Shown here in pieces: positions 11,882 through 32,069 of a DNA stretch of 64,000 nucleotides. The translations under genes and the position numbers were made by a program. The notes under the pieces were generated by a model. It saw only the letters and a list, made by a program, of their open reading frames with translations, ran no database searches and was not told where the DNA came from. The stretch is from Sandaracinus amylolyticus (GTDB lineage: Bacteria; Myxococcota_A; Polyangia; Polyangiales; Sandaracinaceae), in the NCBI RefSeq assembly GCF_021631985.1, contig NZ_CP070225.1, forward strand, positions 9,114,001 to 9,178,000, in the 5' to 3' direction. Within the stretch, counting starts at the first letter, position 1; each line of letters opens with the position of its first letter.

Positions 11882-11897
11882 CGCAACGCGCGTTCCA
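11882..11897 (-). promoter_or_regulatory. sigma-54-type promoter for the PNPOx-like gene
   Basis: On the minus strand this reads TGGAACGCGCGTTGCG: 9 of 11 scored consensus positions (TGGCAC, 5 nt, TTGCW), with GG and GC exactly 10 nt apart. The start codon lies about 36 nt after the GC, leaving room for a 24-nt leader with AGGAG. Confidence 0.55.
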
Positions 11898-11945
11898 TGC
11901 AGCGGACGGGGCGGGACGCCGCGCGCGTGCTCGGTCGCTCGGGCG

Positions 11946-11961
11946 TGGCATCGCGACTGCA
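11946..11961 (+). promoter_or_regulatory. sigma-54-type promoter for the gene at 11990
   Basis: Reads TGGCATCGCGACTGCA, 9 of 11 consensus positions, GG-10 nt-GC spacing kept. It faces away from the site at 11882-11897, so this divergent region has one sigma-54-like site on each side. Confidence 0.55.
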
Positions 11962-11989
11962 CGCCAGAGCGCGGAGGTTCCATCGAGCC

Positions 11990-12478
11990 ATGTCCCGCCG
12001 ACGACGCGACCAGGACCGCACGATCGACAGCGACCCGGCGACGCAGCCCGGGCTGAGCGTGCCCAAGGTGTTCGAGCCGACGACCGATCCCGGCGCTCTG
12101 CACGAGGAGCAGGACGTCGAGCGGATGCTCGATCACGAAGCGCGCTCGGAGGACGACGCCGACGTGCATCGACACGAGCGCCCGCCGCTCGCCGCGACCA
12201 CCGATCCCCAGGCGGTCGAGGAGCTCGCCGGCGAGGCGATCCAGCTGGCCACCCAGGGCGGAGGCTCGCGACGCATCGACGGCGACGACTCGCTCGAGGA
12301 GCAGATCGATCGCGACGCGATGGAGGCGGGCATCGTGCCCCAGCTGGTCGGGCAGGCGACGCTCGACTCCGCCGCGGGCACCGACGAGGAGCAGCCCGAC
12401 GTCGACGAAGACGCGGAGACCCTGCCGCGTGCGCGCCCGGGCCGAACGTCGGTGCGAGGTCGTCGTCCGAGCCCCTGA
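11990..12478 (+). CDS. acidic, probably disordered protein of unknown function
   Basis: A 162-residue cytoplasmic protein with no hydrophobic core. It has an Arg-rich N-terminus (MSRRRRD), a middle rich in Asp, Glu and Ala, two possible amphipathic helices (QAVEELAGEAIQLAT and EEQIDRDAMEAGIVPQLVGQ), and an Arg/Pro-rich tail. GCGGAGG precedes the ATG by 12 nt. Placement after a sigma-54-like promoter and beside a PNPOx-type stress gene suggests a stress role, but no family is recognised. Confidence 0.5.
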   Translation: MSRRRRDQDRTIDSDPATQPGLSVPKVFEPTTDPGALHEEQDVERMLDHEARSEDDADVHRHERPPLAATTDPQAVEELAGEAIQLATQGGGSRRIDGDDSLEEQIDRDAMEAGIVPQLVGQATLDSAAGTDEEQPDVDEDAETLPRARPGRTSVRGRRPSP

Positions 12479-12507
12479 GGAGAGGGCAATTTCTGAGGAG
12501 AGCATCT

Positions 12508-12585
12508 GAGGAGAGCAGGAGGGTCAGGAGGGAAGGAGAAGTTGGCTCGTCGAGCGAAATCCCTCCTGCAACTCCTGCTCTCCTC
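12508..12585. terminator. large purine/pyrimidine inverted repeat between convergent genes
   Basis: A 26-nt purine-rich arm (12508-12533, starting GAGGAGAGCAGGAG) pairs with 12560-12585 with only three consecutive mismatches. The 26-nt loop contains its own GCTCG/CGAGC stem. Three CTGAGGAGAG-type direct repeats precede the first arm. It lies between two converging genes, so it probably ends both transcripts. Confidence 0.6.
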
Positions 12586-12630
12586 AGCGGAGTCTCTTCT
12601 CTGCGGCCCTCTGCGTCCTCTGTGGTGAGT

Positions 12631-13557
12631 TCACTCCGCGGCCATCGCGAGGTCGCTGTCGAGCCACTGAGGCTCGCGCTCGCCGCAGTCCACGAGGCGA
12701 CAGCCGGGCCGCTTCGCGTCGCCGAGGAAGGTCGAGAGATCCGCGAGCACGCGCTCCGGGCAGTCGAGGTGCGGGAAGTGCCCGCAGCGCTCGTACCCGT
12801 GCACCGTCGCGTGCAGCAGCTTCTCCGCGACGCGCCGCGCGTGCGCGAAGGGCAGCACCGGATCGAGCTCGCCCCAGAGCACTGCGATCGGCGGGAGCAT
12901 CGTGCTCGCGTCGACGACCTCCCAGAACGTCGCGCGCTGTCCGTTCACGTCGAGGCTCGCGTCGAGGATGCGCTGCAGCGCCTCGGCGGTGCCCGGCATC
13001 GCGGCGAGCACTGCATACCGCGCGAGCTCCTCGGGCTCGGGCCGCGCGAAGCGCGCGGGCCCGAGCGGCGACACCGCGAGGCGCGTCGCGATCCGCCGCG
13101 CGACGAGCGATCCCAGCAGCGCACGCGCGACCGGCAGCACGCTCATGCGCAACCACGGCGAGACCTCGCGACCGAGCCCGCCCGGCGCGATCAGGGCGAG
13201 ACGCTCCACGCGCTCCGCGTGATCGCGGAGCATCGCGAGCGCGACGCCGCCGCCGAAGGAGTGGCCACAGATCGCGGCGCGCGGCACACCGACCGCCTCC
13301 ATCCACGCCGCGATCGTCGACGCGAACCACGGCGGATCGTAGGGCGCCTCGCTCGGGCGTCCCGACCATCCGTGGCCCGGTAGATCGGGCATCAGCACGC
13401 GATGCGTGCGCGCGAGCGCGGGCGCGATCCGCCGGAACGTGCGGTGCGAGTCCGCGAGCCCGTGCAGGAGCACGAGCGGCGGGCCCTCGCCGAGCTCGCC
13501 CCACGCCACGTCGCAGTCGTTCACCCTCACGACCCGCGCGTGACCCAGCATCTCCAT
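12631..13557 (-). CDS. alpha/beta-fold hydrolase
   Basis: A 308-residue single-domain alpha/beta hydrolase. PLVLLHGLADSHRTFR gives the oxyanion HG motif, LMPDLPGHGWSGRP is the typical second strand loop, GHSFGGGVAL holds the nucleophile serine, WGELDPVLPF the acid and YERCGHFPHLDCPE the catalytic histidine. It resembles the lyase/esterase branch used for small esters or lactones; the substrate is not predictable. The ATG at 13557 is used; another in-frame ATG at 13551 is equally possible. The C-terminal 35 residues extend beyond the fold. Confidence 0.85.
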   Translation of the reverse strand: MEMLGHARVVRVNDCDVAWGELGEGPPLVLLHGLADSHRTFRRIAPALARTHRVLMPDLPGHGWSGRPSEAPYDPPWFASTIAAWMEAVGVPRAAICGHSFGGGVALAMLRDHAERVERLALIAPGGLGREVSPWLRMSVLPVARALLGSLVARRIATRLAVSPLGPARFARPEPEELARYAVLAAMPGTAEALQRILDASLDVNGQRATFWEVVDASTMLPPIAVLWGELDPVLPFAHARRVAEKLLHATVHGYERCGHFPHLDCPERVLADLSTFLGDAKRPGCRLVDCGEREPQWLDSDLAMAAE

Positions 13558-13570: not shown

Positions 13571-13586
13571 AGCACTGGTCGTGCCG
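13571..13586 (-). promoter_or_regulatory. possible sigma-54-type site ahead of the hydrolase
   Basis: On the minus strand it reads CGGCACGACCAGTGCT (9 of 11 consensus positions, correct spacing). It lies only 14 nt before the annotated ATG, so either the real start is further inside the gene or the match is accidental. Confidence 0.3.
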
Positions 13587-13714
13587 AGCTGGATCGCGAA
13601 GAAATGCCGCGCGACAGCGTCGAGATCGACGCACGACGCCTCGCTCGCGCGGCGCGATGTCGCAGCCGCGGCCCTCGGCCTCGTCCGGTACGGCGGGTGC
13701 TCTTTCGCGCCGCG

Positions 13715-14074
13715 ATGGACGCCAGCACCCGAGCGATCGGCATCGCCAGCGCGCTCACCCTCGTCGCGACGCTCTGTTGGCAGCTCCGCGCGCAGTGGAG
13801 GAAGGGCACGAGCGAGGGCGTGTCGCGCTTCCTCTTCGCGGGGCAGCTCGGCGCATCGACCGGCTTCGCGATCTACAGCGCGCTGATCGAGGATGCGGTG
13901 TTCGTCGCCACCAACGTCGCGACCGGCGTCGCCGCGGTCGCGGGCTTGGCGATCACGATCGCGTTGCGACGACGGGCTCGCCGCGCGCGATCGTGGCGAG
14001 CCGGCGAGGCGCGCCGGCACGGCGCGGCCGCGAGCCACGGAGCCGGACGCGCCGCGCCGCTGGGATCCGCGTGA
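13715..14074 (+). CDS. SemiSWEET / PQ-loop-type three-helix membrane protein
   Basis: A 119-residue protein with three predicted membrane helices in the first 85 residues, then an Arg/Ala-rich cytoplasmic tail. The loop after helix 1 reads CWQLRAQWRKGTSEGVSRF, close to the PQ-loop signature (Gln, basic residues, then a Thr-Ser-x-Gly-x-Ser run) of SemiSWEET sugar carriers, which work as dimers of three-helix units. The Pro of the usual PQ pair is Trp here. The substrate may be a sugar, but this is inference. The start is ATG 13715; no strong ribosome site is visible. Confidence 0.65.
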   Translation: MDASTRAIGIASALTLVATLCWQLRAQWRKGTSEGVSRFLFAGQLGASTGFAIYSALIEDAVFVATNVATGVAAVAGLAITIALRRRARRARSWRAGEARRHGAAASHGAGRAAPLGSA

Positions 14075-14141
14075 TCCCGTTGCGCACGACGATTGCACAA
14101 CGCTGGTTCACGCGGCGCAGGAGCCCGCGAGGAGGTGGGGG

Positions 14142-15323
14142 ATGTCGACGCGGACGACGGTGAGGTTGCCGGCCGCCACCGTCGCCGCGCGCACCGCCGT
14201 CACCCTCGACGACGACGCGCGCTACGAGCCCGCCGTGGCGTTCGATCGCGCCCCCCTGCGCGCGAGCGCGTCGAGCTCGAGCAGCACGCACGTCCCGCCG
14301 ACCTCGAGCGCGCCGGTGCCGAGCCACGTGATCGCGCTCCGGGTCGGGCTCGCGCTGCTCTTCGTCGCGACCTGCGTCGTGCTCTGGCCCTTCTGGCCGT
14401 GGCTCACGCTCGCGGCGTGGTTCGCGGCGCTCGCGCGCCCGATGGTCGAGCGCCTCGCGCACATCACCCACGGTCGTCGCGCTGCGGCCGCCGTCACGAC
14501 GATGCTGCTGCTCGTGCTCTCGCTGGGCCCGCTCCTCGCGCTCGCGGTCTCGCTCTCCGCCGACGCCGCGGATCTCGTCCACGAGGTGACGCGCACGCGC
14601 TCGGGGCGTCAGGCCGTGATCGCGATCGTCTCGCCCGACGGCGCGATCCAGCGCCCGGATCTCGACGTGCCCACCGTCGTGCACGTGTTCCGCAGCCAGG
14701 GCGAGCGCGCGTGGACGATGGCGAGCAGCGTCGCAGGCGCGACCGCCGATCTCGTGCTCGGGCTCTTCGTGTTCTTCACCGCGGCGTTCTTCTGTCTGGT
14801 CGACGGGCCGCGCGCGTTCGACTGGGTCGAGCGCCACACCCCGATCGCGCACCGCCACGCGCTGCGCTTCGCGGGCGCGTTCGTCGAGACCGGGCGCGGG
14901 CTCTTCGTCGGCGTGGGGCTCACCGGGCTCGTGCAGGCGATCATCGCGACCGGCGCGTACTGGGCGCTCGACGTGCCGCGCCCGGTCGTGCTCGGCGTGC
15001 TCACGTTCGTCGCGTCGTTCATCCCCACCGTCGGCACCGCGCTGGTGTGGGTGCCGGTCGCGCTGGGGCTCGCGTTCACCGGTCGCGAGTCGGAGGCCGC
15101 GCTGCTCGCGGGCGTCGGCATCCTGGTCGTCGGCACCGTCGACAACCTGCTGCGCCCCGTGCTCGCGCGCTGGGGGCGGCTGCACATGCACACCTTCGTG
15201 GTGCTGGTCTCGATGCTCGGCGGCCTCGCGATCGCGGGGGGATGGGGCCTGATGCTCGGCCCGCTCGTGGTGCGCCTGACGCTCGAGGCGCTGCGCATCG
15301 CGAAGGAGGAGGAGATCGTTTGA
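14142..15323 (+). CDS. AI-2E family (PerM/YdiK type) membrane transporter
   Basis: A 393-residue inner-membrane protein. After a 65-residue Ser/Ala-rich cytoplasmic N-terminus come paired helices (VGLALLFVATCVVLWPFWPW), a soluble middle region, then a block of helices with LTGLVQAIIATGAYWALDVP, VLTFVASFIPTVGTALVWVP and the late GTVDNLLRPVL motif. These last two are the signatures of the AI-2E/PerM exporter family, whose members export autoinducer-2 or act in sodium/proton exchange; the substrate here is unknown. GAGGAGGTGGGG precedes the ATG. Overlaps the next gene by TTGA. Confidence 0.88.
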   Translation: MSTRTTVRLPAATVAARTAVTLDDDARYEPAVAFDRAPLRASASSSSSTHVPPTSSAPVPSHVIALRVGLALLFVATCVVLWPFWPWLTLAAWFAALARPMVERLAHITHGRRAAAAVTTMLLLVLSLGPLLALAVSLSADAADLVHEVTRTRSGRQAVIAIVSPDGAIQRPDLDVPTVVHVFRSQGERAWTMASSVAGATADLVLGLFVFFTAAFFCLVDGPRAFDWVERHTPIAHRHALRFAGAFVETGRGLFVGVGLTGLVQAIIATGAYWALDVPRPVVLGVLTFVASFIPTVGTALVWVPVALGLAFTGRESEAALLAGVGILVVGTVDNLLRPVLARWGRLHMHTFVVLVSMLGGLAIAGGWGLMLGPLVVRLTLEALRIAKEEEIV

Positions 15324-17858: not shown

Positions 17859-18095
17859 CTCGGCTCGCCCGCCCTCCGCGCGCTCCCGTCCGGCCGGACG
17901 AGCACTCCGGCGAGGGATCAAAATCGGCTCGCCCGCCGGGCCCTACCGTCCGCGCGCTTCGCGCGCTCCCGTCCGGGACCGGCGGGACGAGCACTCCGGC
18001 GAGGGATCAAAATCGGCTCGCCCGCCGGTCCCCTCCCGTCCGCGCGCTGCGCGCGCTCCCGTCCGGGACCGGCGGACGAGCACTCCGGCGAGGGT
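17859..18095. repeat. tandem array of three hairpin elements (repeat units 1-3)
   Basis: Three copies in the same direction of the dispersed hairpin element of this genome: 17859-17920 (lacking its inner hairpin), 17921-18009, and 18010-18095. The last two are about 89 nt apart and nearly identical. On the minus strand the hairpins are followed by CCGATTTTGATC, so for the minus-strand gene ending at 18096 they look like back-to-back intrinsic terminators. Outer stem: GCTCG-CCCGCCGGTCCC with its complement; inner stem: GCGCGC with TTC or TGC loop. Confidence 0.85.
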
Positions 18096-18338
18096 TCACC
18101 GCCGCGGCGGCGCAGCGGGCCGCTCGGGCGCGCTCACGCCGTCGCCTTCGATCGCGCTGCGATCGCCCGGCGCGCGCTCGTAGACCCACTGCGACGACAT
18201 CGCGACCGCGCGCTCGATCGCCTCTTCCTCCGGGCTCCCGTCGCGCACGAGCGCGTTGACCATTTCGATCGCCTTGCTGCGCGCGGGCTCGGGAAGTCTC
18301 GCGATGCGCGGGGACATCCGCTGGTGCGTGGTCGCCAT
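18096..18338 (-). CDS. small helical protein of unknown function
   Basis: An 80-residue soluble protein. Its helices include RLPEPARSKAIEMVNALVRDG and SPEEEAIERAVAMSSQWVYE, followed by a Pro/Arg-rich tail. The pattern of P-x-x-A-R ... A-x-x-x-V-N-A-L ... E-E-E-A-I-x-x-A resembles small DUF2188/ChaB-like stress proteins only loosely. AAGGAG lies 12 nt before the ATG and a sigma-54-like promoter 31 nt upstream. Its stop is directly followed (on its own strand) by the tandem hairpin array. Confidence 0.6.
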   Translation of the reverse strand: MATTHQRMSPRIARLPEPARSKAIEMVNALVRDGSPEEEAIERAVAMSSQWVYERAPGDRSAIEGDGVSAPERPAAPPRR

Positions 18339-18368: not shown

Positions 18369-18384
18369 AGCAACACGCGGGCCC
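18369..18384 (-). promoter_or_regulatory. sigma-54-type promoter for the gene at 18338
   Basis: On the minus strand reads GGGCCCGCGTGTTGCT: a perfect TTGCT block, 9 of 11 positions overall, GG and GC 10 nt apart. It is 31 nt before the start codon. Confidence 0.5.
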
Positions 18385-18477
18385 GCTCGTGGGCGCGGCG
18401 CGACGCGAGCCAGCGCGCTCGGGGCGCACCGCCACGCGACCGCGACGCGAGCAGCCCCGAATGCAAGCCATCGCGAA

Positions 18478-18493
18478 TGGCACGTCGCCTGCT
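18478..18493 (+). promoter_or_regulatory. sigma-54-type promoter for the gene at 18563
   Basis: Reads TGGCACGTCGCCTGCT, 10 of 11 consensus positions with exact spacing. It lies 70 nt before the ATG and faces away from the site at 18369-18384. Confidence 0.65.
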
Positions 18494-18562: not shown

Positions 18563-18925
18563 ATGGACCAGGGGACGGCAAGGGCGGGAGCGACCGCGCA
18601 GACCACGAGCGATCGCGCGCGCCACGTGCACACGCCGCATCCGCTCGAGGGCACCGGCGGGCCGATCGCGCGTGCGGTCGTCGGCAGCGTGCTCCTCGTC
18701 TCCGGCATTCGTCGTCGCGGCATCGTCGGCGCGCTGCTCGCGACGGCCGGTGGCGTCGTGCTGCGCCGCGCGGCCGAAGAGCTCTACACGCACCTGCGCA
18801 GCGAGCTCTTCGCGCCGCGCCCCGACCTCGAGCGTCGCTACGGCGAGAGCTTCGATCGCGACGTCGTCGAAGAGGCGTCGTGGGAGTCGTTCCCCGCGAG
18901 CGATCCCCCGGGCTTCACGCACTGA
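18563..18925 (+). CDS. small membrane protein with C-terminal SFPASDPP motif
   Basis: A 120-residue protein with a Gly/Ala-rich hydrophobic hairpin (about residues 33-65: ARAVVGSVLLVSGIRRRGIV, GALLATAGGVVLRRA) and an amphipathic, charged C-terminal half. It ends in EEASWESFPASDPPGFTH; the SFPASDPP string is a widespread C-terminal motif of small stress-type proteins with unknown role. GGAGG lies 11 nt before the ATG. The strong sigma-54-like site upstream and the strong hairpin terminator downstream indicate a single-gene transcript. Confidence 0.65.
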   Translation: MDQGTARAGATAQTTSDRARHVHTPHPLEGTGGPIARAVVGSVLLVSGIRRRGIVGALLATAGGVVLRRAAEELYTHLRSELFAPRPDLERRYGESFDRDVVEEASWESFPASDPPGFTH

Positions 18926-19115: not shown

Positions 19116-20309
<1,194 letters not shown>

Positions 20310-20314
20310 GCCAT

Positions 20315-20394
20315 TGCGGGAGTGCTCGTCCCGCCGGTCCCGGACGGGAGCGCGCGAAGCGCGCGGACGGTAGGGCCCGGCGGGCGAGCCGATT
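20315..20394 (-). repeat. dispersed hairpin element, copy 4
   Basis: Inverse orientation of the unit seen at 17921. The inner stem GCGCGC is capped by GAA, giving the GCGAAGC sequence known to form an exceptionally stable mini-hairpin in DNA. The outer arms are CTCGTCCCGCCGGTCCC and its near-complement. It begins 6 nt after the kinase stop. Confidence 0.85.
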
Positions 20395-20548: not shown

Positions 20549-20564
20549 TGGCCCCGCGCTTGCT
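20549..20564 (+). promoter_or_regulatory. sigma-54-type promoter for the 47-residue microprotein
   Basis: Reads TGGCCCCGCGCTTGCT, 10 of 11 consensus positions, GG and GC 10 nt apart, 50 nt before the ATG. Confidence 0.65.
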
Positions 20565-20819: not shown

Positions 20820-20852
20820 GAGGCGCCGCGCCCCACTCGGGCTCGGCGCCTC
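20820..20852 (+). terminator. 9-bp hairpin terminator after the microprotein gene
   Basis: GAGGCGCCG pairs with CGGCGCCTC around a 15-nt loop, 62 nt after the stop codon and before the promoter of the second kinase. Confidence 0.55.
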
Positions 20853-20919: not shown

Positions 20920-20935
20920 TGGCACTCGCCGTGCT
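20920..20935 (+). promoter_or_regulatory. sigma-54-type promoter for the second Ser/Thr kinase
   Basis: Reads TGGCACTCGCCGTGCT, 10 of 11 consensus positions, 31 nt before the ATG at 20966. Confidence 0.65.
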
Positions 20936-22375: not shown

Positions 22376-22391
22376 TGGCATCTGCCGTGCA
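22376..22391 (+). promoter_or_regulatory. sigma-54-type promoter for the DUF1328 gene
   Basis: Reads TGGCATCTGCCGTGCA, 9 of 11 positions, correct spacing, 58 nt before the ATG. It lies inside the left arm of an inverted repeat whose right arm (22421-22438) covers the ribosome site. Confidence 0.5.
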
Positions 22392-22448: not shown

Positions 22449-22619
22449 ATGCTGTACTGGTCGGTGGTGTTCTTCGTGCTCGCGCTGATCGCGGCGATCT
22501 TCGGCTTCGGCGGGATCGCGGCGGGCGCGGCGACGATCGGCAAGATCCTGTTCGTCGGGTTCCTCGCGCTCGCGGTGCTCAGCCTCGTCGCGGGACGTCG
22601 CCCGACGCTGCGCACCTGA
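22449..22619 (+). CDS. DUF1328 family small membrane protein (YtjA type)
   Basis: A 56-residue protein made of two membrane helices: [20 protein letters not shown] and a Gly/Ala-rich second helix ([20 protein letters not shown], in part). MLYW at the start, the FGFGGIA turn and the short basic tail RRPT are exact DUF1328 features. Members are common stress-induced inner-membrane peptides of unknown mechanism. GGAGGAGAG precedes the ATG. Confidence 0.88.
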
Positions 22620-22669: not shown

Positions 22670-25498
22670 TCAGCCGTACGACGACGTCCGCACGTCGCAG
22701 AGCTCCGCGACCTTCGTGACGAGCTCGTGGGTGTCCACCGGCTTCGTCAGGTAGGCCTCGAACCCTGCCTCGAGCGCGCGCCGCACGTCGTCGGGCTGCG
22801 AGAACGCGGAGATCGCGACCGCGCGCATCACGGGGTCGTGCTGCAGCGCGAAGCTCACGAGCGAGATCCCGTCCTCGTAGGGCATCGCGATGTCGCTCAC
22901 GAGGATGTCGAAGCGCGACTCCGCGAGCCGCGCCCGCGCCTGCGCCGCCGATGCCGCGAGCGTCACGCGCGCGCCGCGCAGCGAGAGCACCGAGCCGTAG
23001 AGCTCGCGCGCGTCGTCGTGATCGTCGACGAGCAGCACCCGCACGCCGACGAGGTCGGGCGTCTTCGCGCGCGGGGCGATGTTGATCCCGGGCGACGTGC
23101 CGGGCTCGCTCGAGGCGCGCCCGTCGGGCAGGCGCACCGTGAACGTCGCGCCGCGCCCGAGCCCCTCGCTCTGCACCGAGATCGTCCCGCCGTGCAGCTC
23201 GACGAGCTTGCGCGCGATCGCGAGGCCCAGCCCGAGCCCGCCGTGGCGACGCGTCGAGCTCGCGTCCGCCTGGCGGAAGCGATCGAACAAGAAGGGCAGG
23301 AACGAAGGATCGATCCCCGCGCCGGTGTCGATCACCTGCGCGATCGTCGCGTTCCCGTCGCGCGCCACACGCGCGGTGACGCGCCCGCCCTGTGGCGTGA
23401 ACTTCACCGCGTTCGTCAGCAGGTGGAAGAAGATCTGGCGCAAGCGCATCGCATCGCCGCGCACCGTCGCCGCGCGATCGACGTCGAGCGCGACCTCGAT
23501 CCCGCGCTCGGTCGCGCCGCTGCGCACGAGATCGACCGCCTCCTCCATCGGCCCCGAGACCGGCACGACCTTCGGATCGAGCGTGATCTTGTTCCGGAGG
23601 ATGCGCGACGTGTCGAGGATGTCGTCGACGATGCGGGCCTGCGCCTGCGCGTTGCGCTGGATGACCTCGAGCCCCTTGCGCACGCGCTCCTGCGCGGGCT
23701 TGGGATCGTCCATCAGCAGCTTCGACCACCCGAGGATCGTCGAGAGCGGCGTGCGCAGCTCGTGGGAGACGATCGAGAGGAACTCGTCCTTCAGCGCGTT
23801 CGCGCGCTGCGCCTCTTCGTAGAGCAGGACGTTCTCGAGCGCCGCGGACACGCGACGGCCGAGCTCCTCCGCGATGAAGCGATCCGCGAGATCGTAGGGA
23901 CGGCTCGAGCGGGTCGACTCGAGCGTGAGCGCGCCGGCGACCTCGCCGCGCACCGAGAGCGGCACGAAGATCCAGGCGCGCGTCCCGAGCGCCTCGAGCG
24001 CGCGCCGCGCGTCGTCGTCGCGCGCCGCCGAGCGCAGCAGCTCGGGCGTCACCTCGGGCACGAGATCGCTGCTGCCGGTGCGGAGCACCACGCCGAGCCC
24101 GTGCTTCACGCCCTCGTCGTCGCGGAAGAGATCGGCGATCGCGCGGGTGTCCGGCGAGTCGGTGCGCGAGTCCGCGGTCGCGATGCAGCGCACGCGTCCG
24201 GTCGCGTCGCGCAGGTGCACCGCGCACACGTCGGCCATCTCGGTCACGACCGAGCGCGCGAAGCCCTGCAGCATCTCCTCGCGCACCAGCGATGCACCGA
24301 GCGCGCGCGTGACCTCGCCGACGATCGCGAGCGCCTGCTCGCCGCGCTTGCGCGCCGTGATGTCGTCGAAGCGCAGCGCGACCTCGTCGGGTCCGAGCGG
24401 CGCGACCCAGCACTGGAACCACGAGCCCGGCCCGCGCGTCGGGCGCGCGACCTCGACGCTCTGCGCCTCGCCGCCGTCGAGCACGCGCATCAGCAGCCCC
24501 CAGAGGATCGACTGCTCGATCTCCGGCCACACCTCGCGCAGATCCGCGCCCGCGATGGTGCGCTCGCTCCCGAGCGTCGCGCTCGCGGCGTGGTTCGCAT
24601 AGACGCAGCGCAGTGTGATCGCGCCGGCGCCGTCCGCGCGCTCGGCGCGCAGCGCGAGGAAACCCTCGTGCGACGCGTCCTGGACCGTGCGGAAGCGACG
24701 CTCGCTCTCGGCGAGCGCGTCCGCCATGCGCCGCTCGTCGGTCACGTCGACGACGATCACCGCGATGCCGACCAGCGACTCGCCCGAGCGCACCGGGACG
24801 AAGCTCGCGAGCCCGTCGATCGTCGCGCTCGCGCCGCGCCATCGCACGTGCAGCTGCGGAGAGGGCAGCCCCGACGCCAGCACCTCGTGGACGATCTGCT
24901 TGACCCGCCCCGCGCTCTCGGCGTCGATGATCTCCTCGACCCGACGTCCGAGGTGCGCGTCGCGCGAGCGCCCGTTCATGCGAGCGAGGACGTCGTTCAC
25001 CTCGAGGTAGCGCAGCTCGCGATCGAGGATCGCGATGCCGATCGGCGCCATCCCGAGCAGCGCGTCGAGGATGGCGCGCTCGTGCGTCGGCGGCGTGCGC
25101 TGGATCGTGCCGGTTCGGTCGGGTCGTTCGCTCAACGTCGTCTCGCCGGGGCTGCGCTCGTCGTGGACGTCGGTCAGGGTTCCCACCCAACGGCTCAGCG
25201 TGCCGTCGCTCTCGCGCACTGCGCACGCGCGGAGCTCGTGCCACCGCCACGCACCGTCACGACGGCGCACGCGGACGCGCGAGACCTGGGTGTCGCCGAA
25301 TCCATCGGGCCGCGTCCCCAGTCTCGCGCCGACGTCGTCGGGATGCAGCACGGCGGGCCAGCCGAGCCGCACCGCGTCGTCCGTGCAGACGCCCGTGTAC
25401 TCGACCCAACGTGCGTTGACCGCGGTGAGCTGACCGCGCGGGTCGGCCTCCCACACCACGTGCGGAAGGACGTCGGCGAGGGGGCCCAGCACGTCGAC
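22670..25498 (-). CDS. hybrid sensor histidine kinase (PAS-PAS-PAS-GAF-HisKA-HATPase-REC)
   Basis: About 942 residues, soluble. Three PAS domains (roughly 5-115, 140-250, 265-390), a GAF domain (410-560), the phospho-acceptor helix with SHELRTP near H579, the ATPase N-box LLTNAVKF and G-boxes DTGAGIDP and GGLGLGLAI, then a receiver domain with LLVDDHDD and the phospho-acceptor Asp in VSDIAMP. Upstream GTG at 25567 is in frame but lacks a ribosome site and lies too near a sigma-54-like promoter; GTG at 25498 follows GGGGAGAG, starts just ahead of the first PAS domain and is preferred. Probably senses a cytoplasmic cue and passes phosphate to a separate partner. Confidence 0.92.
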   Translation of the reverse strand, partial: VDVLGPLADVLPHVVWEADPRGQLTAVNARWVEYTGVCTDDAVRLGWPAVLHPDDVGARLGTRPDGFGDTQVSRVRVRRRDGAWRWHELRACAVRESDGTLSRWVGTLTDVHDERSPGETTLSERPDRTGTIQRTPPTHERAILDALLGMAPIGIAILDRELRYLEVNDVLARMNGRSRDAHLGRRVEEIIDAESAGRVKQIVHEVLASGLPSPQLHVRWRGASATIDGLASFVPVRSGESLVGIAVIVVDVTDERRMADALAESERRFRTVQDASHEGFLALRAERADGAGAITLRCVYANHAASATLGSERTIAGADLREVWPEIEQSILWGLLMRVLDGGEAQSVEVARPTRGPGSWFQCWVAPLGPDEVALRFDDITARKRGEQALAIVGEVTRALGASLVREEMLQGFARSVVTEMADVCAVHLRDATGRVRCIATADSRTDSPDTRAIADLFRDDEGVKHGLGVVLRTGSSDLVPEVTPELLRSAARDDDARRALEALGTRAWIFVPLSVRGEVAGALTLESTRSSRPYDLADRFIAEELGRRVSAALENVLLYEEAQRANALKDEFLSIVSHELRTPLSTILGWSKLLMDDPKPAQERVRKGLEVIQRNAQAQARIVDDILDTSRILRNKITLDPKVVPVSGPMEEAVDLVRSGATERGIEVALDVDRAATVRGDAMRLRQIFFHLLTNAVKFTPQGGRVTARVARDGNATIAQVIDTGAGIDPSFLPFLFDRFRQADASSTRRHGGLGLGLAIARKLVELHGGTISVQSEGLGRGATFTVRLPDGRASSEPGTSPGINIAPRAKTPDLVGVRVLLVDDHDDARELYGSVLSLRGARVTLAASAAQARARLAESRFDILVSDIAMPYEDGISLVSFALQHDPVMRAVAISAFSQPDDVRRALEAGFEAYLTKPVDTHELVTKVAELCDVRTSSYG

Positions 25499-25567: not shown

Positions 25568-25583
25568 AGCAAGGCGCGCACCA
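25568..25583 (-). promoter_or_regulatory. sigma-54-type promoter for the hybrid histidine kinase
   Basis: On the minus strand reads TGGTGCGCGCCTTGCT (9 of 11 positions, perfect TTGCT, correct spacing). It would start transcription near 25557, inside the longest possible frame, which supports the start at 25498. Confidence 0.45.
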
Positions 25584-25701
25584 CGCGAGGACGCCGCGCT
25601 TTCCCGGAGGATCAGGGCAGCGCGACGGGATCACTGCCGAGGCACACCGCCTCGGGTGGTGAAAAATGTCTCGGCCCGTGATGCATCCTGGAAAGACGGT
25701 A

Positions 25702-26124
25702 TCAGTCCGCCTGCGGCGTCAGCTGGCCGCCCGGGACGTTGTAGTCGTGCGTCGGATCGCTGACGTAGGGAGCGTTCCAGACGTGAGCCCACCAGTACAC
25801 GGGCAGGATGCCCCACGGCAGCAGCACCATGCCGGTGATCCACAGCCCGCGGTTCTCGCTGCGCGGGTTCTGCGCCGCGAACGAGATGAAGAAGAGGCAC
25901 AGCAGATACTGCATGAACGTCGCGACGAAGAGGCTCCAGTGGATGAGGCTCACGTGCTCGGGCGGCGAGGGCACCGCGAACGCGGCGAGCGCGGAGACCG
26001 CGAACGTCACGATGACCACGGCCATCACGATGCCGAGCACGAGGCGCGCGCTGCGGCTCCATCGGGTGATCGACTCGTTGCGCGTGGTGCGCGGCGCATG
26101 AGCAGGAACGGTCCGAGTTTCCAC
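25702..26124 (-). CDS. three-helix membrane protein of unknown function
   Basis: A 140-residue protein with a basic N-terminus and three hydrophobic helices: LVLGIVMAVVIVTFAVSALA, IHWSLFVATFMQYLLCLFFI and LWITGMVLLPWGILPVYWW. The linker between helices 2 and 3 carries AAQNPRSENRG. The order resembles PLDc_N/ SdpI-like small membrane proteins only in a general way. The GTG start follows GGAGG and a strong sigma-54-type promoter. Function unknown. Confidence 0.6.
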   Translation of the reverse strand: METRTVPAHAPRTTRNESITRWSRSARLVLGIVMAVVIVTFAVSALAAFAVPSPPEHVSLIHWSLFVATFMQYLLCLFFISFAAQNPRSENRGLWITGMVLLPWGILPVYWWAHVWNAPYVSDPTHDYNVPGGQLTPQAD

Positions 26125-26168: not shown

Positions 26169-26184
26169 TGCAGAGGGGGTGCCA
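26169..26184 (-). promoter_or_regulatory. sigma-54-type promoter for the gene at 26124
   Basis: On the minus strand reads TGGCACCCCCTCTGCA: complete TGGCAC, then CTGCA, 10 of 11 positions, exact spacing, 45 nt before the GTG. Confidence 0.7.
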
Positions 26185-26260
26185 CGCGAATCGCGCGCGA
26201 TGCTTCCGGCGGAAGACGTGCGAAGTGAGGCGCGTGGCCTCGCTCGGATCGGGCGTGAGG

Positions 26261-26276
26261 GGGCATCGTGCTTGCT
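26261..26276 (+). promoter_or_regulatory. sigma-54-type promoter ahead of the BrkB/YihY gene
   Basis: Reads GGGCATCGTGCTTGCT, perfect TTGCT, 9 of 11 positions, correct spacing. It is only 15 nt before the ATG at 26291, so the real start may be further inside, for example GTG 26327. Confidence 0.45.
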
Positions 26277-26290: not shown

Positions 26291-27313
26291 ATGTGGCGCC
26301 GCGTGCGCACCGGGATCGGCGAGGGCGTGCGCGGCGCGGCGCGCGCGTTCTTCGGCGTCGTGCGCGAGGCGGTCGAGTCGTTCCACCGCCACCGCGGCAG
26401 CCTGCTCGGCGCGGCGCTCGCGTTCTACACGCTGCTCTCGATCGCGCCCTTGCTGGTGGTCGCGGTCGCGATCGCCGGCATCGTCTTCGGCGAGGGCAAC
26501 GCGCGCATGCAGCTGATGCGCGTGATCGAAGGGTTCGCCGGAGAGCGCGGCGCGGCGATGGTGGGCGCGTGGACCGACGAGGCGCGCGCGGCGAGCTCGG
26601 AGGCGACGGTGATCGGCCTCGTGCTCTTCGCGGCCGGTGCGTCGCGCGTGTTCGCGCAGCTCGAGTCGACGCTCGACGCGGTGTGGGACGTGCCGGTGCG
26701 GGAGCACGAGACGGTGCGCGGCGCGGTGCGCTGGATGATCGGACGGCGCGTGGTCTCGTTCGTCCTGGTGCTCGGCTTCGGGTTCGTCATCGCGGGCTCG
26801 CTCGTCGCGCAGACGGTGCTCGATCTGATCACGGTCTCGCTCGCGGATCGCGGGATCGCGGTGCACCTCGCGCTGCGCGGCGCGCACGCGCTGTTCTCGA
26901 TCGGCGTGCTCACGCTCGCGTTCGCGCTCGCGTTCCGGCGCGCCCCGCATCGCCACGTCGAGCTGCACGAGACGTGGATCGGCGCGCTGGTCACGGCGCT
27001 GCTCTTCAGCGTCGGCAACGCCATGCTGAGCGCGTACTTCGCGCGGGTCGACATCGGCGCCGCGTACGGCGCGGCGGGCTCGGTGATCGCGGTGCTGCTC
27101 TGGCTCTCGTTCTCCGGGCAGATCCTGGTGTTCGGCGCGGAGCTCACGCGCGTGGTGGCGATGCGCGGAGGGCGCGTGCGCGCGACCAAGCGCGCGCCGC
27201 CGTGGGTCGCGGAGGAAGCTGCGGCGGACGTGCTCCCGCGCGCACGACCGAGGCGCGGTGCATCGCCGAGCGTGGCATCGCCCGTGCTGGGAACGGGCCG
27301 GAGGACCACGTGA
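26291..27313 (+). CDS. YihY/BrkB family inner-membrane protein
   Basis: About 340 residues with six membrane helices. The family signature FHRHRGSLLGAALAFYTLLS opens the first helix, AGASRVFAQLESTLDAVWDV is the conserved periplasmic helix, and AAYGAAGSVIAVLLWLSFSG with QILVFGAELTRV closes the core. Once called RNase BN, the family is now seen as membrane proteins of unknown transport role linked to stress and serum resistance. The C-terminal 35 residues are basic and soluble. Overlaps the USP gene by GTGA. Confidence 0.9.
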   Translation: MWRRVRTGIGEGVRGAARAFFGVVREAVESFHRHRGSLLGAALAFYTLLSIAPLLVVAVAIAGIVFGEGNARMQLMRVIEGFAGERGAAMVGAWTDEARAASSEATVIGLVLFAAGASRVFAQLESTLDAVWDVPVREHETVRGAVRWMIGRRVVSFVLVLGFGFVIAGSLVAQTVLDLITVSLADRGIAVHLALRGAHALFSIGVLTLAFALAFRRAPHRHVELHETWIGALVTALLFSVGNAMLSAYFARVDIGAAYGAAGSVIAVLLWLSFSGQILVFGAELTRVVAMRGGRVRATKRAPPWVAEEAAADVLPRARPRRGASPSVASPVLGTGRRTT

Positions 27314-27762
27314 ACATCGCGGCCATTCTCTGTCCCGTCGACTTCTCCGCGAGCTCCGAGGTGGCCGCGCGCTTCGCTGCGTCGATCGCGCGCGACCTGG
27401 GCGCCGAGGTCCACCTCGCGCACGTCGTGCCGCTCCCGATGCCCGCGATGCCGGTGCCCGAGATCGGCCTCGCGCCACAGGAGATGATGGGCCCGCCGCT
27501 CCCGCAGATGCAGCGCGAGGCGAGCGCGAGCCTGCGTCAGCTCGCGACCCAGCTCTGCCTCGAGCCGCACGTGCACGTCGTGACCGGCACCGCGGCGCGC
27601 GAGATCGTGAAGCTCGCGCAGAGCATCGGCGCGGGGATGATCGTGATGGGCACCCACGGTCGCACCGGGCTCGCGCACCTGCTGCTCGGGAGCACCGCCG
27701 AGCGCGTCGTGCGCACCGCGCCGATCCCGGTGCTCGTCGTGCCGCACCACCGCGAGAGCTGA
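27310..27762 (+). CDS. universal stress protein (UspA family)
   Basis: A 150-residue single USP domain. The first strand reads ILCPVDFSASSEVAARFAAS, the nucleotide-binding signature is GTHGRTGLAHLLLGSTAERV, and the end PIPVLVVP is canonical. The G-2x-G-9x-G-S pattern needed for ATP binding is present, so it belongs to the ATP-binding class. The GTG start overlaps the BrkB-type stop; CCGGAGG supplies the ribosome site. Such proteins help cells survive starvation and oxidative stress. Confidence 0.93.
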   Translation: MNIAAILCPVDFSASSEVAARFAASIARDLGAEVHLAHVVPLPMPAMPVPEIGLAPQEMMGPPLPQMQREASASLRQLATQLCLEPHVHVVTGTAAREIVKLAQSIGAGMIVMGTHGRTGLAHLLLGSTAERVVRTAPIPVLVVPHHRES

Positions 27763-27868: not shown

Positions 27869-28504
27869 TCAGAACATCTGGTAGCCGGCGGCGAGCCCCA
27901 CGATCACGACGGTCGTGTCTCGATCGACGAAGATCGGGTGCACGTTCGCGCTGATCACGAGCCCTCGCCGTCGCGCCCGCGTGCGATCGCCGAGCGACAC
28001 CGCGAGCCGCGCCTCCATCCCGAGGTGCAGATCCGAGAGCCCGTCGCAGCGCGACGCGTCTTGGCCGCAGAGCCCGCCGATGCCGACGTCGAGCGAGGGG
28101 CCCGCGCCGAGCTGCACGCGCTCGAAGAGCGTCAGGTCGAGCACCATCGCGTTCGTCGACACCGCGAACGCGCCCTCGTCGCTCGCGATCACGTCGGCGA
28201 GCCAGAGCCGGTGCACCGCGTAGGTCGCGACGATGTCGTTGAGCTGCAGCCCGATGTGGATCGACACGCCGCCGCCGAGGCCACCTTCGTCGCCCACCGT
28301 CGCGCCGAGCATTCCGTCGGCGGCGAAGCGCACGCGATCGTCGGTGTAGTACTCGTCGGGCAGTGGCTCGAAGTACTGCTGCGCGTGCGCGCGCTGCGAT
28401 GGACCGAGCAGCGACGCGAGCATCGCGAGCGCGATCGTGATCGCTTCGCGCGCGCTGCGTCGCGTCGCGCCGCATGATCGCTTCGTCGCGTGGTGGCGCT
28501 TCAT
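27869..28504 (-). CDS. exported protein, probable outer-membrane beta-barrel
   Basis: A 211-residue protein with a signal peptide cut after AHA at about residue 41. The mature part has alternating hydrophobic/polar strands ([34 protein letters not shown]) and ends in Phe after [13 protein letters not shown], as outer-membrane barrels do. Two cysteines ([11 protein letters not shown]) may form a loop disulfide. Small enough for an eight-strand barrel. GGGAGGACGAGGG precedes the ATG, and a sigma-54-type promoter is 37 nt upstream. Confidence 0.6.
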
Positions 28505-28540: not shown

Positions 28541-28556
28541 TGCAGCACGCGTGCCC
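28541..28556 (-). promoter_or_regulatory. sigma-54-type promoter for the barrel-like gene
   Basis: On the minus strand reads GGGCACGCGTGCTGCA, 9 of 11 positions with exact spacing. It faces away from the site at 28646-28661. Confidence 0.5.
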
Positions 28557-28645: not shown

Positions 28646-28661
28646 TGGCCTCTTCGTTGCT
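28646..28661 (+). promoter_or_regulatory. sigma-54-type promoter for the second GlsB/YeaQ gene
   Basis: Reads TGGCCTCTTCGTTGCT, with complete TTGCT, 9 of 11 positions, correct spacing, 68 nt before the ATG. Confidence 0.55.
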
Positions 28662-28728: not shown

Positions 28729-28992
28729 ATGTTGATCACCATCGTGACCTGGATCGTCTTCGGCCTCGTAGTCGGCATCGCGCGCGCGGTCGTGCCGGGC
28801 TCGCAGCCGATGAGCATCCCCGGCACCATCCTCCTCGGTGTCGCGGGCTCGTTCGTCGGTGGCCTCGTCGGCAACCTGCTCGCGGGCAACTCGGCGCTGC
28901 AGGTGCACGCGGCGGGCTTCATCGGATCGGTGCTCGGCGCGATCCTGCTGCTCGTCGTGATGATGTTCGCCACGCGGCGCCGGCTCGCGTGA
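28729..28992 (+). CDS. GlsB/YeaQ/YmgE-type small membrane protein (second copy)
   Basis: An 87-residue three-helix protein: [19 protein letters not shown], then [20 protein letters not shown] and [19 protein letters not shown], ending in RRR. It shares the VHAAGFxG segment with the copy at 21976. Family members are induced by envelope or general stress. ACAGGAGGACCC precedes the ATG. The response-regulator gene follows 25 nt later and is probably in the same transcript. Confidence 0.85.
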
Positions 28993-29017: not shown

Positions 29018-29590
29018 ATGGACGCGACGCACGACGGAACGTCGTTTGCCAACGCGCACGGCCCCATGATCGTGAAGACCGTCAGGCCGCTCGAAGGTGC
29101 CCACGTCCTCGTCGTCGAGGACGACCCCGACATCCTCGAGCTCCACGCCATCTCGCTGCGCGAGGCGGGCGCGGACGTGCACGCCGTCGGCTCGGCGCAC
29201 GCGGCGCTCGACGCGCTCGACGCGGGCGCGTCGTTCGACGTGATCGTGAGCGACCTGTCGATGCCCGAGCTCGACGGCTTCGAGCTGATGCGCCGAGTGC
29301 GCGCGCGTGGCGGTCGCGCGGCGGTCGTGCCCGCGCTCGCGGTGACGGCGCTGGGCGACGACGACCACGTCGACGAAGCCGCACGCGCCGGCTTCCACGC
29401 GCACGTCCGCAAGCCACTCGCGCCCGACGATCTGGTGCTCGCGATCGCGTGTCTGGTGCCCGCACGGGGTCGGGGTCCGGGTCGGGACCGGAACGGACAC
29501 CGGGCCGGGTCCGGCCCCGAGACGGCCCGGGATCGCCGTCCAGCGGTGGAAGGCGATCCGACGCGACACGACGGCGATCCCTGGTCGTAG
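29018..29590 (+). CDS. single-domain response regulator with low-complexity tail
   Basis: A 190-residue protein with one receiver domain (about residues 27-148). The acidic pocket is VLVVEDDPD, the phospho-acceptor Asp is in VSDLSMPELDG, the switch Thr in ALAVTALGDDD and the Lys in HVRKPLAP. There is no output domain. The last 40 residues are Arg/Gly/Asp-rich and come from a GC-rich inverted repeat, so they look like a later extension. It is a possible phosphate acceptor for the orphan hybrid kinase at 22670. ATG at 29066 is an alternative start. Confidence 0.85.
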   Translation: MDATHDGTSFANAHGPMIVKTVRPLEGAHVLVVEDDPDILELHAISLREAGADVHAVGSAHAALDALDAGASFDVIVSDLSMPELDGFELMRRVRARGGRAAVVPALAVTALGDDDHVDEAARAGFHAHVRKPLAPDDLVLAIACLVPARGRGPGRDRNGHRAGSGPETARDRRPAVEGDPTRHDGDPWS

Positions 29591-29803: not shown

Positions 29804-29813
29804 TCCAAACACC

Positions 29814-29876: not shown

Positions 29877-30713
29877 TCAGGCGCACGCGCGGAGATGATC
29901 CGCGAGACGGTCCCGGAGCCGGCGCTCGAGCTGGCGCACGCGCTCGCCGCTCACGCCGATCTGCTCCCCGACCGCGCGCAGCGACGCGGGCTCGTCCGCG
30001 ACCAGGCGGTGGTCGAAGATGCACGCATCACGATCGCCCAGCTGCTGGCGGAAGTGGTTGATCGCCGAGACCGCGCGCTCGCGCTCCTCGTGCGCCGCCA
30101 CGACCTCCTCCGGGCCCGGCAGATCGTTCGCGAGCGTGTCCTCGACCGTGCGGCGGCTGCCGTCACCGGTCGCCGCGCTCAGGCTCACGTCGCGGTTCTC
30201 GAGGCGCGCGAGCAGCGACTCGACCTCGCTCGCGTCCACCCCGAGGCGCTCCGCGATCGCCTCGCGCGTCGGCTCGATGTTCTCGGCGAGCAGCGACGCA
30301 TGCGCGCGGCCCACGTTGAAGAAGAGGCGACGGCCCGCGCGGGTCGTCGAGCTGCGCACCACGCGCAGACGATCGCGGAGGAACGCGATCACGTACGCGC
30401 GGATCCAGAGCGACGCGTACGTCGAGAAGAGCACCCCGCGCTCGGGGTCGAAACGGTCGGCCGCGACGAGGAGGCCGACGTTGCCCTCCTGGATCGCGTC
30501 CATCATGCAGCGCTGCAGCGCGGGGTAGCCGCGCACGATCTTCACCACCAGACGCAGGTGGCTCTCGACGAGACGGCGACGCAGCGACTCTTCGCCGGTC
30601 GACTTCATCCGCGTCACCAGATCGCGCTCCTCCTCGCGGGTGAGCATGGGAATCCGGGTGACCGCGCGCAGGTATGCGCCGAGGGAGCCTTCGCGTGCGC
30701 TGTGGATCGACAT
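29877..30713 (-). CDS. RpoH-like (sigma-32 type) RNA polymerase sigma factor
   Basis: A 278-residue alternative sigma factor. Region 2 is clear (LVESHLRLVVKIVRGY, then DAIQEGNVGLLVAADRFDPE and FSTYASLWIRAYV). Just after it comes GRRLFFNVGRAHASL, equivalent to the RpoH box (RKLFFNLR), which separates heat-shock sigma factors from RpoD/RpoS types. Region 3 is present, and region 4 ends with the helix-turn-helix AVGEQIGVSGERVRQLERRL. CGGAGGAACG precedes the ATG. A strong sigma-54-like site lies 91 nt upstream, suggesting a sigma cascade. Region 4.2 is complete, so it should be active. Confidence 0.92.
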   Translation of the reverse strand: MSIHSAREGSLGAYLRAVTRIPMLTREEERDLVTRMKSTGEESLRRRLVESHLRLVVKIVRGYPALQRCMMDAIQEGNVGLLVAADRFDPERGVLFSTYASLWIRAYVIAFLRDRLRVVRSSTTRAGRRLFFNVGRAHASLLAENIEPTREAIAERLGVDASEVESLLARLENRDVSLSAATGDGSRRTVEDTLANDLPGPEEVVAAHEERERAVSAINHFRQQLGDRDACIFDHRLVADEPASLRAVGEQIGVSGERVRQLERRLRDRLADHLRACA

Positions 30714-30803
30714 CGTTCCTCCGAGACGTGCAGGAGCGCGGGCCTCCGGGGCGGCGCGCATCGAGAAACCATCGGGTTCGTCGGGGGGTGCGCGGGGCCG
30801 TTC

Positions 30804-30819
30804 TGCACGGCTGGTGCCA
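30804..30819 (-). promoter_or_regulatory. sigma-54-type promoter for the RpoH-like sigma gene
   Basis: On the minus strand reads TGGCACCAGCCGTGCA: complete TGGCAC and GTGCA, 10 of 11 positions, GG and GC exactly 10 nt apart. It predicts a leader of about 80 nt. Confidence 0.65.
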
Positions 30820-30897
30820 CGGCTCGGAGGGCCGAGATCACGTCGAGATCGCGAAAGACACGCCCTGAGTGCGTGTTCCCTGCTGTGGCACCGCGCC

Positions 30898-31686
30898 TCA
30901 TGCGAGGCGTCCGCGCGCACGCTCCACCGCGCGCGCCCGGCGCACGGCAACGACCACCGGGAGATGGTCCGACGCCTCACGAACGAGACCCTTGTTGGGG
31001 ACCTCCGCGGCGAGGACCTCGAGACCGGCGCCCACCAGGACGTGATCGATCCGCAGCAGCGGTCGCCACGACGGGTACGTGGCGCAGACGTAGCCCGGCC
31101 GCGCCAGCTGCTGCGCGTCGGAGAGCTTCGTCGTCAGACGTCGGTACGCGATCGACCCGCGCCCGCAGTTGAAGTCACCGAGCAGCACGGTGTGCGGCGA
31201 CGACGTCCGCTCGATCTCCGCCGCGACGTGGCGGGCCTGGCCCATGCGCTCGACCGGGCCGAGCCCGAAGTGCGTCACGACCACGTCGAGCTCGCCGCCC
31301 GGCGCGGCGACGCGGGTGTGCACGAAGCACCGCGGCTCGCTGACCGCGCGCCACGTCGGCAGCTTCTCGGTGCGCACGTGCTCGATCGGATGGCGCGACA
31401 GCACCGCGTTGCCGTAGTGCCCGCGACCGTCGTAGAGCGCGGCGCCGAACACGTGGCTCATGCCGAGGCGCACCGCGATCGCCTCGGCCTGATCGAGCCC
31501 ACCGCTGCGGGTGCGCCCCACGTCGATCTCCTGCAGGCCGATCACGTCGGCGTCGCAGGCGCGCAGCACGTCGGCGATGCGATCGAGCGCGCGCACTCCG
31601 TCGGTGCCGACGCAGCCGTGCGCGTTGTACGTCATCACGCGCAGCGTCGGCGGGTGCGGCATCAGCTCGACGTCGCCGTCGGTCAT
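30898..31686 (-). CDS. endonuclease/exonuclease/phosphatase (EEP) superfamily protein
   Basis: A 262-residue cytoplasmic enzyme of the DNase I-like fold. It holds the full motif set: LRVMTYNAHGC, VIGLQEIDVGR with the metal Glu, VVVTHFGLG, VLLGDFNCGRGS with the Asp/Asn pair, RIDHVLV and SDHLPVVV with the catalytic His. Members cut nucleic acids, phosphoinositides or sphingomyelin; no signal peptide is present, so a nucleic-acid or small phosphate-ester substrate is likely. It follows the YtxH-like gene by 31 nt on the same strand. Confidence 0.88.
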   Translation of the reverse strand: MTDGDVELMPHPPTLRVMTYNAHGCVGTDGVRALDRIADVLRACDADVIGLQEIDVGRTRSGGLDQAEAIAVRLGMSHVFGAALYDGRGHYGNAVLSRHPIEHVRTEKLPTWRAVSEPRCFVHTRVAAPGGELDVVVTHFGLGPVERMGQARHVAAEIERTSSPHTVLLGDFNCGRGSIAYRRLTTKLSDAQQLARPGYVCATYPSWRPLLRIDHVLVGAGLEVLAAEVPNKGLVREASDHLPVVVAVRRARAVERARGRLA

Positions 31687-31717
31687 CGCCTCGTCGCCGC
31701 GGGAGCGCGGACCTCGC

Positions 31718-32008
31718 TCAGGTCGGAGCCGTCGCGCCGTCGCGCCCGCCTGCGCGCAGCTGCTCGATCATCTCGTCGATGTCCTTCTTCAGCGCCTCGC
31801 GGGTGCGCGGCGTGAAGACCAGCGCCGCCGCGGCGCCGAACAACGCGCCCGCGGCGAACACGCCGGGAATCAGCGCGGTTCCGACGACCGGGACGATGCC
31901 GACGGCGGCGATCGCGTTGCCCACGCCGACCGCGCGGAGCGAGCGGACGGCTTTGCGGACCCCGGGGCGATTGCCGATCGACGCGATCGTCTTCGTGATG
32001 TGGATCAT
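31718..32008 (-). CDS. YtxH-like small membrane-associated protein
   Basis: A 96-residue protein. The middle is a long Gly/Ala/Val-rich hydrophobic stretch (AIAAVGIVPVVGTALIPGVF, AAGALFGAAAALVF), followed by TPRTREALKKDIDEMIEQLR. The hydrophobic hairpin with a charged amphipathic C-terminal helix and the TPRTR...LK motif is the layout of YtxH/general stress proteins. GGAGGTTCTGCG precedes the ATG; a sigma-54-type site lies 46 nt upstream. Probably co-transcribed with the EEP gene. Confidence 0.65.
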   Translation of the reverse strand: MIHITKTIASIGNRPGVRKAVRSLRAVGVGNAIAAVGIVPVVGTALIPGVFAAGALFGAAAALVFTPRTREALKKDIDEMIEQLRAGGRDGATAPT

Positions 32009-32053
32009 CGCAGAACCTCCCCTGCGCCGTATCGAACGGGTGCTCCGGTGCGG

Positions 32054-32069
32054 AGCAAGCGAGGTGCCG
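32054..32069 (-). promoter_or_regulatory. sigma-54-type promoter for the YtxH-like gene
   Basis: On the minus strand reads CGGCACCTCGCTTGCT, 10 of 11 positions with perfect GGCAC and TTGCT, exact spacing, 46 nt before the ATG. Confidence 0.65.

Follow-up and report, generated by a model that had tools for sequence, protein, structure and literature searches.

Between 8.9 and 32.1 kb of a 64,000-nucleotide stretch of the genome of the soil bacterium Sandaracinus amylolyticus (the window; G000:C1:9114001-9178000, with G000 denoting the source genome of 10.96 Mb in two contigs), about 17 predicted sigma-54 (RpoN) promoters form an island, and the majority probably belong to one regulon whose most likely activator is encoded at 7.47 Mb of the same genome. 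The predicted promoters, their spacing and conservation, an upstream dyad common to many of them and the association of this dyad with one clade of activators can be read from the DNA, and judged in this way the window holds an unusual number of sigma-54 promoters.

Placement and conservation of the sigma-54 sites

The motif TGGCAC-N5-TTGCW has been scored over 11 positions with up to two mismatches counted as a match, and a match was regarded as promoter-placed when intergenic and at most 250 bp before a called start; gene calling relied on a home-made script based on codon usage, which makes the start codons and distances approximate. A preliminary description of this DNA had reported 15 sites, six of them matching ten of the 11 positions; all 15 have been recovered in the same places and on the same strands, the six with one mismatch (18478+, 20549+, 20920+, 26169-, 30804- and 32054-) and the other nine with two, and the GG (-24) and GC (-12) elements are retained in each (Table 1).

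The raw count in the window, which has a G+C content of 70-74%, is moderately high, with 22 matches versus 12.07 in 100 dinucleotide shuffles (standard deviation 3.34, largest 20). The extreme feature is the placement, as 16 of the 17 matches within 11.3-32.3 kb are promoter-placed, and an equal density inside genes, which would have spoken against the prediction, was not seen. In the same interval, the alternative spacers N1-N4 and N6-N9 give 0-3 promoter-placed matches each and 100 permuted motifs a mean of 1.06 with a maximum of 8. Control stretches of the same genome amounting to 318 kb contain 11 promoter-placed matches; all four of their matches with no or one mismatch are promoter-placed and none is coding. 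A weaker control is the strand-flipped count, with 10 matches still promoter-placed because many sites sit between divergent genes.

Genome-wide, matches with at most one mismatch number 124 versus 309 for the reversed-pattern control, and raw frequency alone therefore proves nothing; seven of the 124 fall in 23 kb of the window. The analysis covered 100 of these 124 sites (seven in the window, three in other loci and 90 further ones), and the 90, scored for placement, comprise 72 promoter-placed, 12 otherwise intergenic and six coding sites. These placement controls, together with the 72 of 90 promoter-placed sites, argue that the motif marks real promoters in this genome.

Conservation points in the same direction. 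In a second genome of the same genus (G001), the island is collinear on the opposite strand with 87-93% DNA identity, and the stretch at 16.46-18.10 kb of the window lacks a counterpart there. At 17 aligned intergenic sites (8907- was excluded for gaps in its aligned stretch), identity amounts to 186 of 187 bases in the core and 81 of 85 in the spacer, compared with 2087 of 2501 for the remaining aligned intergenic bases (83%); a further 1231 intergenic positions are unaligned. A second rise in identity, to 90-93%, is seen 81-110 bp before the -24 element; it is not unique, as equally high values occur in the bins at 181-200 bp, which hold 40-50 positions each.

Beyond the sites reported previously, 14082+, 27273+ and the divergent pair 8907-/9078+ have been added, and with this pair the cluster starts near 8.9 kb; from 32.3 to 64 kb of the window no promoter-placed match occurs. 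One Sigma54_DBD match, hence one RpoN gene, is present in the genome. Placement, spacing, conservation and the single RpoN gene strongly support the cluster of sigma-54 promoters as it had been proposed.

An upstream dyad and its candidate activator

Word and spaced-word searches of the cluster returned mainly GC-rich words and were set aside. In a scan of palindromic five-base dyads against background, GAGGC-N5-GCCTC ranks first in the cluster with six copies versus 0.58 expected, and four more copies occur in three other loci of the genome. Widened by inspection to GNGGC-N5-GCCNC, with exact matches counted 15-130 bp upstream of a site, the dyad is found at 11 of 18 cluster promoters (nine unique dyads), compared with six of 72 sigma-54 promoters elsewhere in the genome (Fisher p = 5.6e-6) and three of 10 promoters in the three other loci. 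Within the cluster, other spacings from N1 to N9 give 0-1 and permuted half-sites a mean of 0.94 with a maximum of 4. Symmetry extends to the free positions: in a set of 33 dyads, the left half is followed by a purine in 30 and the right half is preceded by a pyrimidine in 28.

Out of sample, the promoters of DUF1328 genes in relatives, which played no role in the choice of the motif, carry the exact dyad in 12 of 19 cases (10 of 17 without sister-genome duplicates). Permuted motifs reach a mean of 0.47 and a maximum of 3 in this set; the spacing N2 gives 6 of 19, an unexplained control value. Equally, the nine cluster dyads differ between G000 and G001 at none of 72 fixed and at 10 of 63 free bases (p = 3.2e-4), and the exact dyad occurs at 11 of 18 cluster promoters of G001. 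Four dyads elsewhere in the window show changes at three of 32 fixed and three of 28 free bases. The sequence thus suggests that the dyad is a probable shared enhancer of the cluster promoters. As many promoters share a matching upstream enhancer, one regulator probably switches on most of the island, and the previously proposed grouping of many sites into one regulon gains support from a dyad that the preliminary description did not contain.

A PF00158 search for sigma-54 activator domains had 87 matches in the genome, all of them outside the window. A lead to the activator comes from another genus of the same family (G004), in which 14 promoter-placed sites within 40 kb (L141 and L142, G004:C112:1-40000) form a second sigma-54 island around genes of the DUF1328, GlsB-type, kinase, PP2C, BON, hemerythrin, SOUL, DUF488, dehydrogenase and EEP families and of two activators. 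Among 20 stretches surrounding DUF1328 genes of relatives, the two from G004 were the only island-like ones, the other 18 having 0-4 sites each. One of these activators, with the architecture receiver-AAA-HTH-receiver, has a G000 orthologue with 55% identity over 654 residues, encoded on the minus strand at G000:C1 7470404-7472383, and a site with an exact dyad lies before its gene. By alignment with its G004 counterpart, for which Pfam named the domains, this orthologue has a receiver, an AAA domain with GAFTDA, a Fis-type HTH and a second receiver; its best NCBIfam match is AtoC with 464.8 bits, under the cut-off of 714. Site and exact dyad precede the activator gene or operon in G000, in G002 (same genus), in G007/G009 and in G013, where the dyad lies between a kinase-activator operon and a GlsB-type gene. 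Among the best 41 loci of named genomes (L312-L352), eight have site and dyad (L312 and L329 among them being G002 and G013 again), and dyad spacings of 3, 4, 6 and 7 give 0, 0, 2 and 0; the other 39 loci of named genomes have two. In L315, the combination precedes a gene that is DUF1328-like by appearance and divergent from an activator relative. This association makes the NtrC/AtoC-type protein at 7.47 Mb the likely driver of the island.

A relative of the activator with 45% identity was also seen in an alphaproteobacterial metagenome-assembled genome (L381), with two sigma-54 sites that each have the same exact dyad, GAGGCATAACGCCTC.

According to the proposed mechanism, RNA polymerase with sigma-54 would wait in closed form at the TGGCAC-N5-TTGCW-type sites until an activator on the upstream dyad GNGGC-N5-GCCNC opens the promoters using ATP, with one dyad each serving the divergent pairs 18369-/18478+ and 26169-/26261+. 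This activator would most likely be the receiver-AAA(GAFTDA)-Fis-type HTH-receiver protein from 7.47 Mb, whose own gene has a promoter-dyad pair. Under its control would be small proteins of membrane and stress type and two Ser/Thr kinases, and also the hybrid histidine kinase, a possible input kinase with possible feedback, and the RpoH-like sigma factor, a possible second tier of the regulon with a possible cascade. Binding, phosphorylation, the stress signal and the cascade, as well as the roles of kinase and sigma factor, are what we infer here.

Table 1. Predicted sigma-54 sites, enhancer-like dyads and two regulatory genes of the island (window positions)
Feature	Position	Strand	Context
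Sigma-54 site, 2 mismatches	8907..8922	-	before 8196-8810(-); same sequence in G001; added site
Sigma-54 site, 1 mismatch	9078..9093	+	before trypsin-like 9132-9863(+); added site
Sigma-54 site	11882..11897	-	before PNPOx-like 11310-11846(-)
Sigma-54 site	11946..11961	+	before 11990-12478(+), no family given
Sigma-54 site	13571..13586	-	before alpha/beta hydrolase 12631-13557(-)
Weak sigma-54-like site without GG	14082..14097	+	before AI-2E transporter 14142-15323(+); added site
Sigma-54 site	18369..18384	-	before small gene ending 18096(-)
Sigma-54 site, 1 mismatch	18478..18493	+	before 18563-18925(+), then Ser/Thr kinase 19116-20309(+)
Sigma-54 site, 1 mismatch	20549..20564	+	before small acidic protein 20614-20757(+)
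Sigma-54 site, 1 mismatch	20920..20935	+	before Ser/Thr kinase 20966-21988(+), GlsB-like 21976-22260(+)
Sigma-54 site	22376..22391	+	before DUF1328 22449-22619(+)
Sigma-54 site	25568..25583	-	before hybrid histidine kinase 22670-25492(-)
Sigma-54 site, 1 mismatch	26169..26184	-	before small membrane protein 25702-26040(-)
Sigma-54 site	26261..26276	+	before BrkB/YihY 26291-27313(+), Usp 27310-27762(+)
Possible extra sigma-54 site	27273..27288	+	inside BrkB, 22 bp before Usp start; G001 copy one mismatch fewer
Sigma-54 site	28541..28556	-	before 27869-28423(-), no family given
Sigma-54 site	28646..28661	+	before GlsB/YeaQ-type 28729-28992(+), receiver protein 29018-29590(+)
Sigma-54 site, 1 mismatch	30804..30819	-	before RpoH-like sigma factor 29877-30647(-); G002 orthologue also has site
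Sigma-54 site, 1 mismatch	32054..32069	-	before YtxH-like 31718-32008(-), EEP protein 30898-31686(-)
Enhancer-like dyad GNGGC-N5-GCCNC	11908..11922		between 11882- and 11946+
Enhancer-like dyad	13668..13682		upstream of 13571-
Enhancer-like dyad	14024..14038		upstream of 14082+; inside called end of 13715-14074
Enhancer-like dyad	18421..18435		common to 18369- and 18478+
Enhancer-like dyad	20820..20834		upstream of 20920+
Enhancer-like dyad	25639..25653		upstream of 25568- (hybrid histidine kinase)
Enhancer-like dyad	26227..26241		common to 26169- and 26261+
Enhancer-like dyad	30885..30899		upstream of 30804- (RpoH-like sigma)
Enhancer-like dyad	32114..32128		upstream of 32054-
Hybrid histidine kinase (PAS, GAF, HisKA, HATPase, receiver)	22670..25492	-	domains by Pfam
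RpoH-like sigma factor	29877..30647	-	186.5 bits to RpoH model, under cut-off 323.1

Several further features were recorded in and around the island. A dispersed GC-rich repeat of about 89 bp, which has many matches in G001 and, with 40 of 1000 candidates scored, at least 46 in G000, occurs at 17890-18098 (in tandem), 20306-20394 and about 22272-22368 of the window. The stretch at about 22272-22368, which by eye resembles a copy and lies just upstream of the DUF1328 promoter, is absent from G001 and may have moved this promoter away from its enhancer. An NfeD-like gene and two SPFH/Band 7 genes at 33694-37112 adjoin the island, and none of the three is preceded by a sigma-54 site. A tRNA-Arg (acg) is predicted at 47458-47552 within an open reading frame called at 47160-47645, a gene call that is probably wrong for this reason; Rfam gave no match in the window. 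Elsewhere in the genome, a 20-kb locus (L190, G000:C1:2270001-2290000) holds four sigma-54 sites before a GlsB-type gene and others, one site having a perfect GAGGC-N5-GCCTC dyad.

Alternative readings

A number of results weigh against a single regulon with a general stress role. The dyad has been picked post hoc within the cluster as the top of several thousand, and its total in the window is unexceptional (16 versus 10.28 expected, with seven of 100 shuffles reaching 16), so that only its placement stands out. A loose composite of site and dyad shows no excess over the reversed control across 38 genomes (13 versus 12 in G000). No exact dyad lies within 15-130 bp of seven of the 18 cluster promoters, and among relatives just two of 15 GlsB-type promoters have one. 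None has been found at the G002 orthologue of the RpoH-like gene, before the activator copies of G004 and G015 or, despite the activator orthologue, at any of the 14 promoters of the G004 island, which has a different dyad, CGATC-N4-GATCG, with seven copies versus 0.5 expected. Outside the order, the site precedes DUF1328 in six of 24 loci, equal to the permuted maximum of 6, and the dyad in none. Moreover, the genes after the 72 other promoters of G000 show no dominant stress class.

Part of these results would fit real sigma-54 promoters under different activators, with the island gathering sigma-54 genes instead of forming one regulon. The promoters without a dyad, its absence throughout the G004 island and the many activator domains encoded in the genome, all of them outside the window, favour such an arrangement; the dyad is, on the other hand, much more frequent in the cluster than at the other 72 promoters and is conserved down to the single base, which makes this an unlikely explanation of the island.

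Equally, the physiological role might be different from general stress. In Myxococcus xanthus, the NmpRSTU regulon, with seven promoters bound, has been reported as an oxygen-utilization regulon (PMC11841059). That the island is a comparable low-oxygen or energy-state regulon is suggested by Usp, which is also among the NmpR targets, and by hemerythrin, which is present in the G004 island and discussed in the same report (PMC11841059). The NmpR enhancer consensus GCGCA-N5-TGCGC is, however, not enriched in the cluster (3.39 per kb with two mismatches versus 3.6 in the background), for which reason identity with the NmpR regulon was rejected, and no cytochrome oxidase family occurs among the island proteins scanned with Pfam; a low-oxygen role is accordingly doubtful.

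The dyads, being GC-rich inverted repeats with a five-base loop, could in principle act as hairpins or terminators and not as protein binding sites. The variable outer position is, however, Watson-Crick paired in just 10 of 32 dyads, none of the nine window dyads is flanked by a T-run and some sit between divergent promoters, so that this explanation is very improbable. Chance matches in a GC-rich genome, for which the moderate excess over shuffles and the genome-wide count below the reversed control might speak, are hardly credible in view of placement, exact spacing and conservation. A real sigma-54 island that is probably largely one regulon is the reading retained.

Target genes and relation to known regulons

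Downstream of the promoters lie PNPOx-like, alpha/beta hydrolase, Ser/Thr kinase, GlsB-type, DUF1328 and hybrid histidine kinase genes, the gene pairs BrkB-Usp, GlsB-receiver and YtxH-EEP, the gene for the RpoH-like sigma factor and those for several uncharacterized small proteins. The families assigned in the preliminary description agree with Pfam apart from the YtxH-like protein, which scores 25.2 bits, under the cut-off of 37.5. Usp, GlsB-type, DUF1328, Pyrid_ox_like and BrkB are assigned by Pfam, and such family names do not test function. From gene content only (Usp, GlsB-like, DUF1328, PNPOx-like, BrkB and the RpoH-like sigma factor), we infer a general stress regulon.

Among relatives at the level of the order, 21 of 29 DUF1328 loci, those of G000 and G001 being counted, have a site before the gene, and so do 15 of 30 loci with GlsB-type genes, the latter being the 30 returned from a longer match list; permuted motifs reach at most 8 in either set, and the spacer N9 gives 10 of 30 in the GlsB set, an unexplained control value. 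In a comparison with 38 genomes, the closest match of the RpoH-like protein beyond the genus has 46% identity; before its G002 orthologue lies a site with two mismatches.

Overlapping families such as Usp, GlsB/YeaQ, DUF1328, BON, hemerythrin and CsbD occur in the general stress regulons that sigma-S, sigma-B or EcfG control. The island differs from these regulons in its sigma-54-type promoters, and none of 12 RpoS matches in G000 lies above the cut-off. DUF1328 also appears in a sigma-S paper (PMC5437024). By analogy, the island would work like other NtrC-type sigma-54 regulons, of which those of NmpR and Nla28 are the closest found in print. With NmpRSTU, as reported, it shares an NtrC-type response regulator acting with sigma-54, dyads with a five-base gap, control of the activator's own operon and a Usp target, whereas many promoters in one island and another dyad set it apart from the seven promoters and GCGCA-N5-TGCGC of that system (PMC11841059). 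Nla28 of M. xanthus is a sigma-54 activator described as a regulator of stress-associated genes, but with 8-bp tandem half-sites and a starvation and developmental setting (PMC9765219). The control of a second sigma factor by sigma-54 and its activator resembles the Borrelia RpoN-RpoS pathway, in which this factor is reported to be RpoS, with experiments, compared with an RpoH-like factor predicted from its promoter here (PMC4014564). Distinctive of the present island are about 17 clustered promoters over stress-type genes, a distinct dyad and the RpoH-like factor among the targets. No published description of island or dyad was found by title and start of abstract, in a search that left the subscription literature mostly outside.

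Large myxobacterial genomes encode scores of sigma-54 activators, mostly without an assigned role, and to our knowledge the organization of the general stress response in myxobacteria is not settled. It is conceivable, though for now tentative, that in the order around Sandaracinus sigma-54 and a single dedicated NtrC-type activator have taken over a stress gene set that elsewhere depends on sigma-S, sigma-B or EcfG. The general stress response would then be ATP-gated and would also drive an RpoH-like sigma factor, and its enhancer would have persisted in several lineages and given way to another in one sister genus at least. The island provides a concrete regulon for which promoters, a motif for the enhancer and a likely gene for the activator are predicted, and this motif might serve to find members elsewhere.

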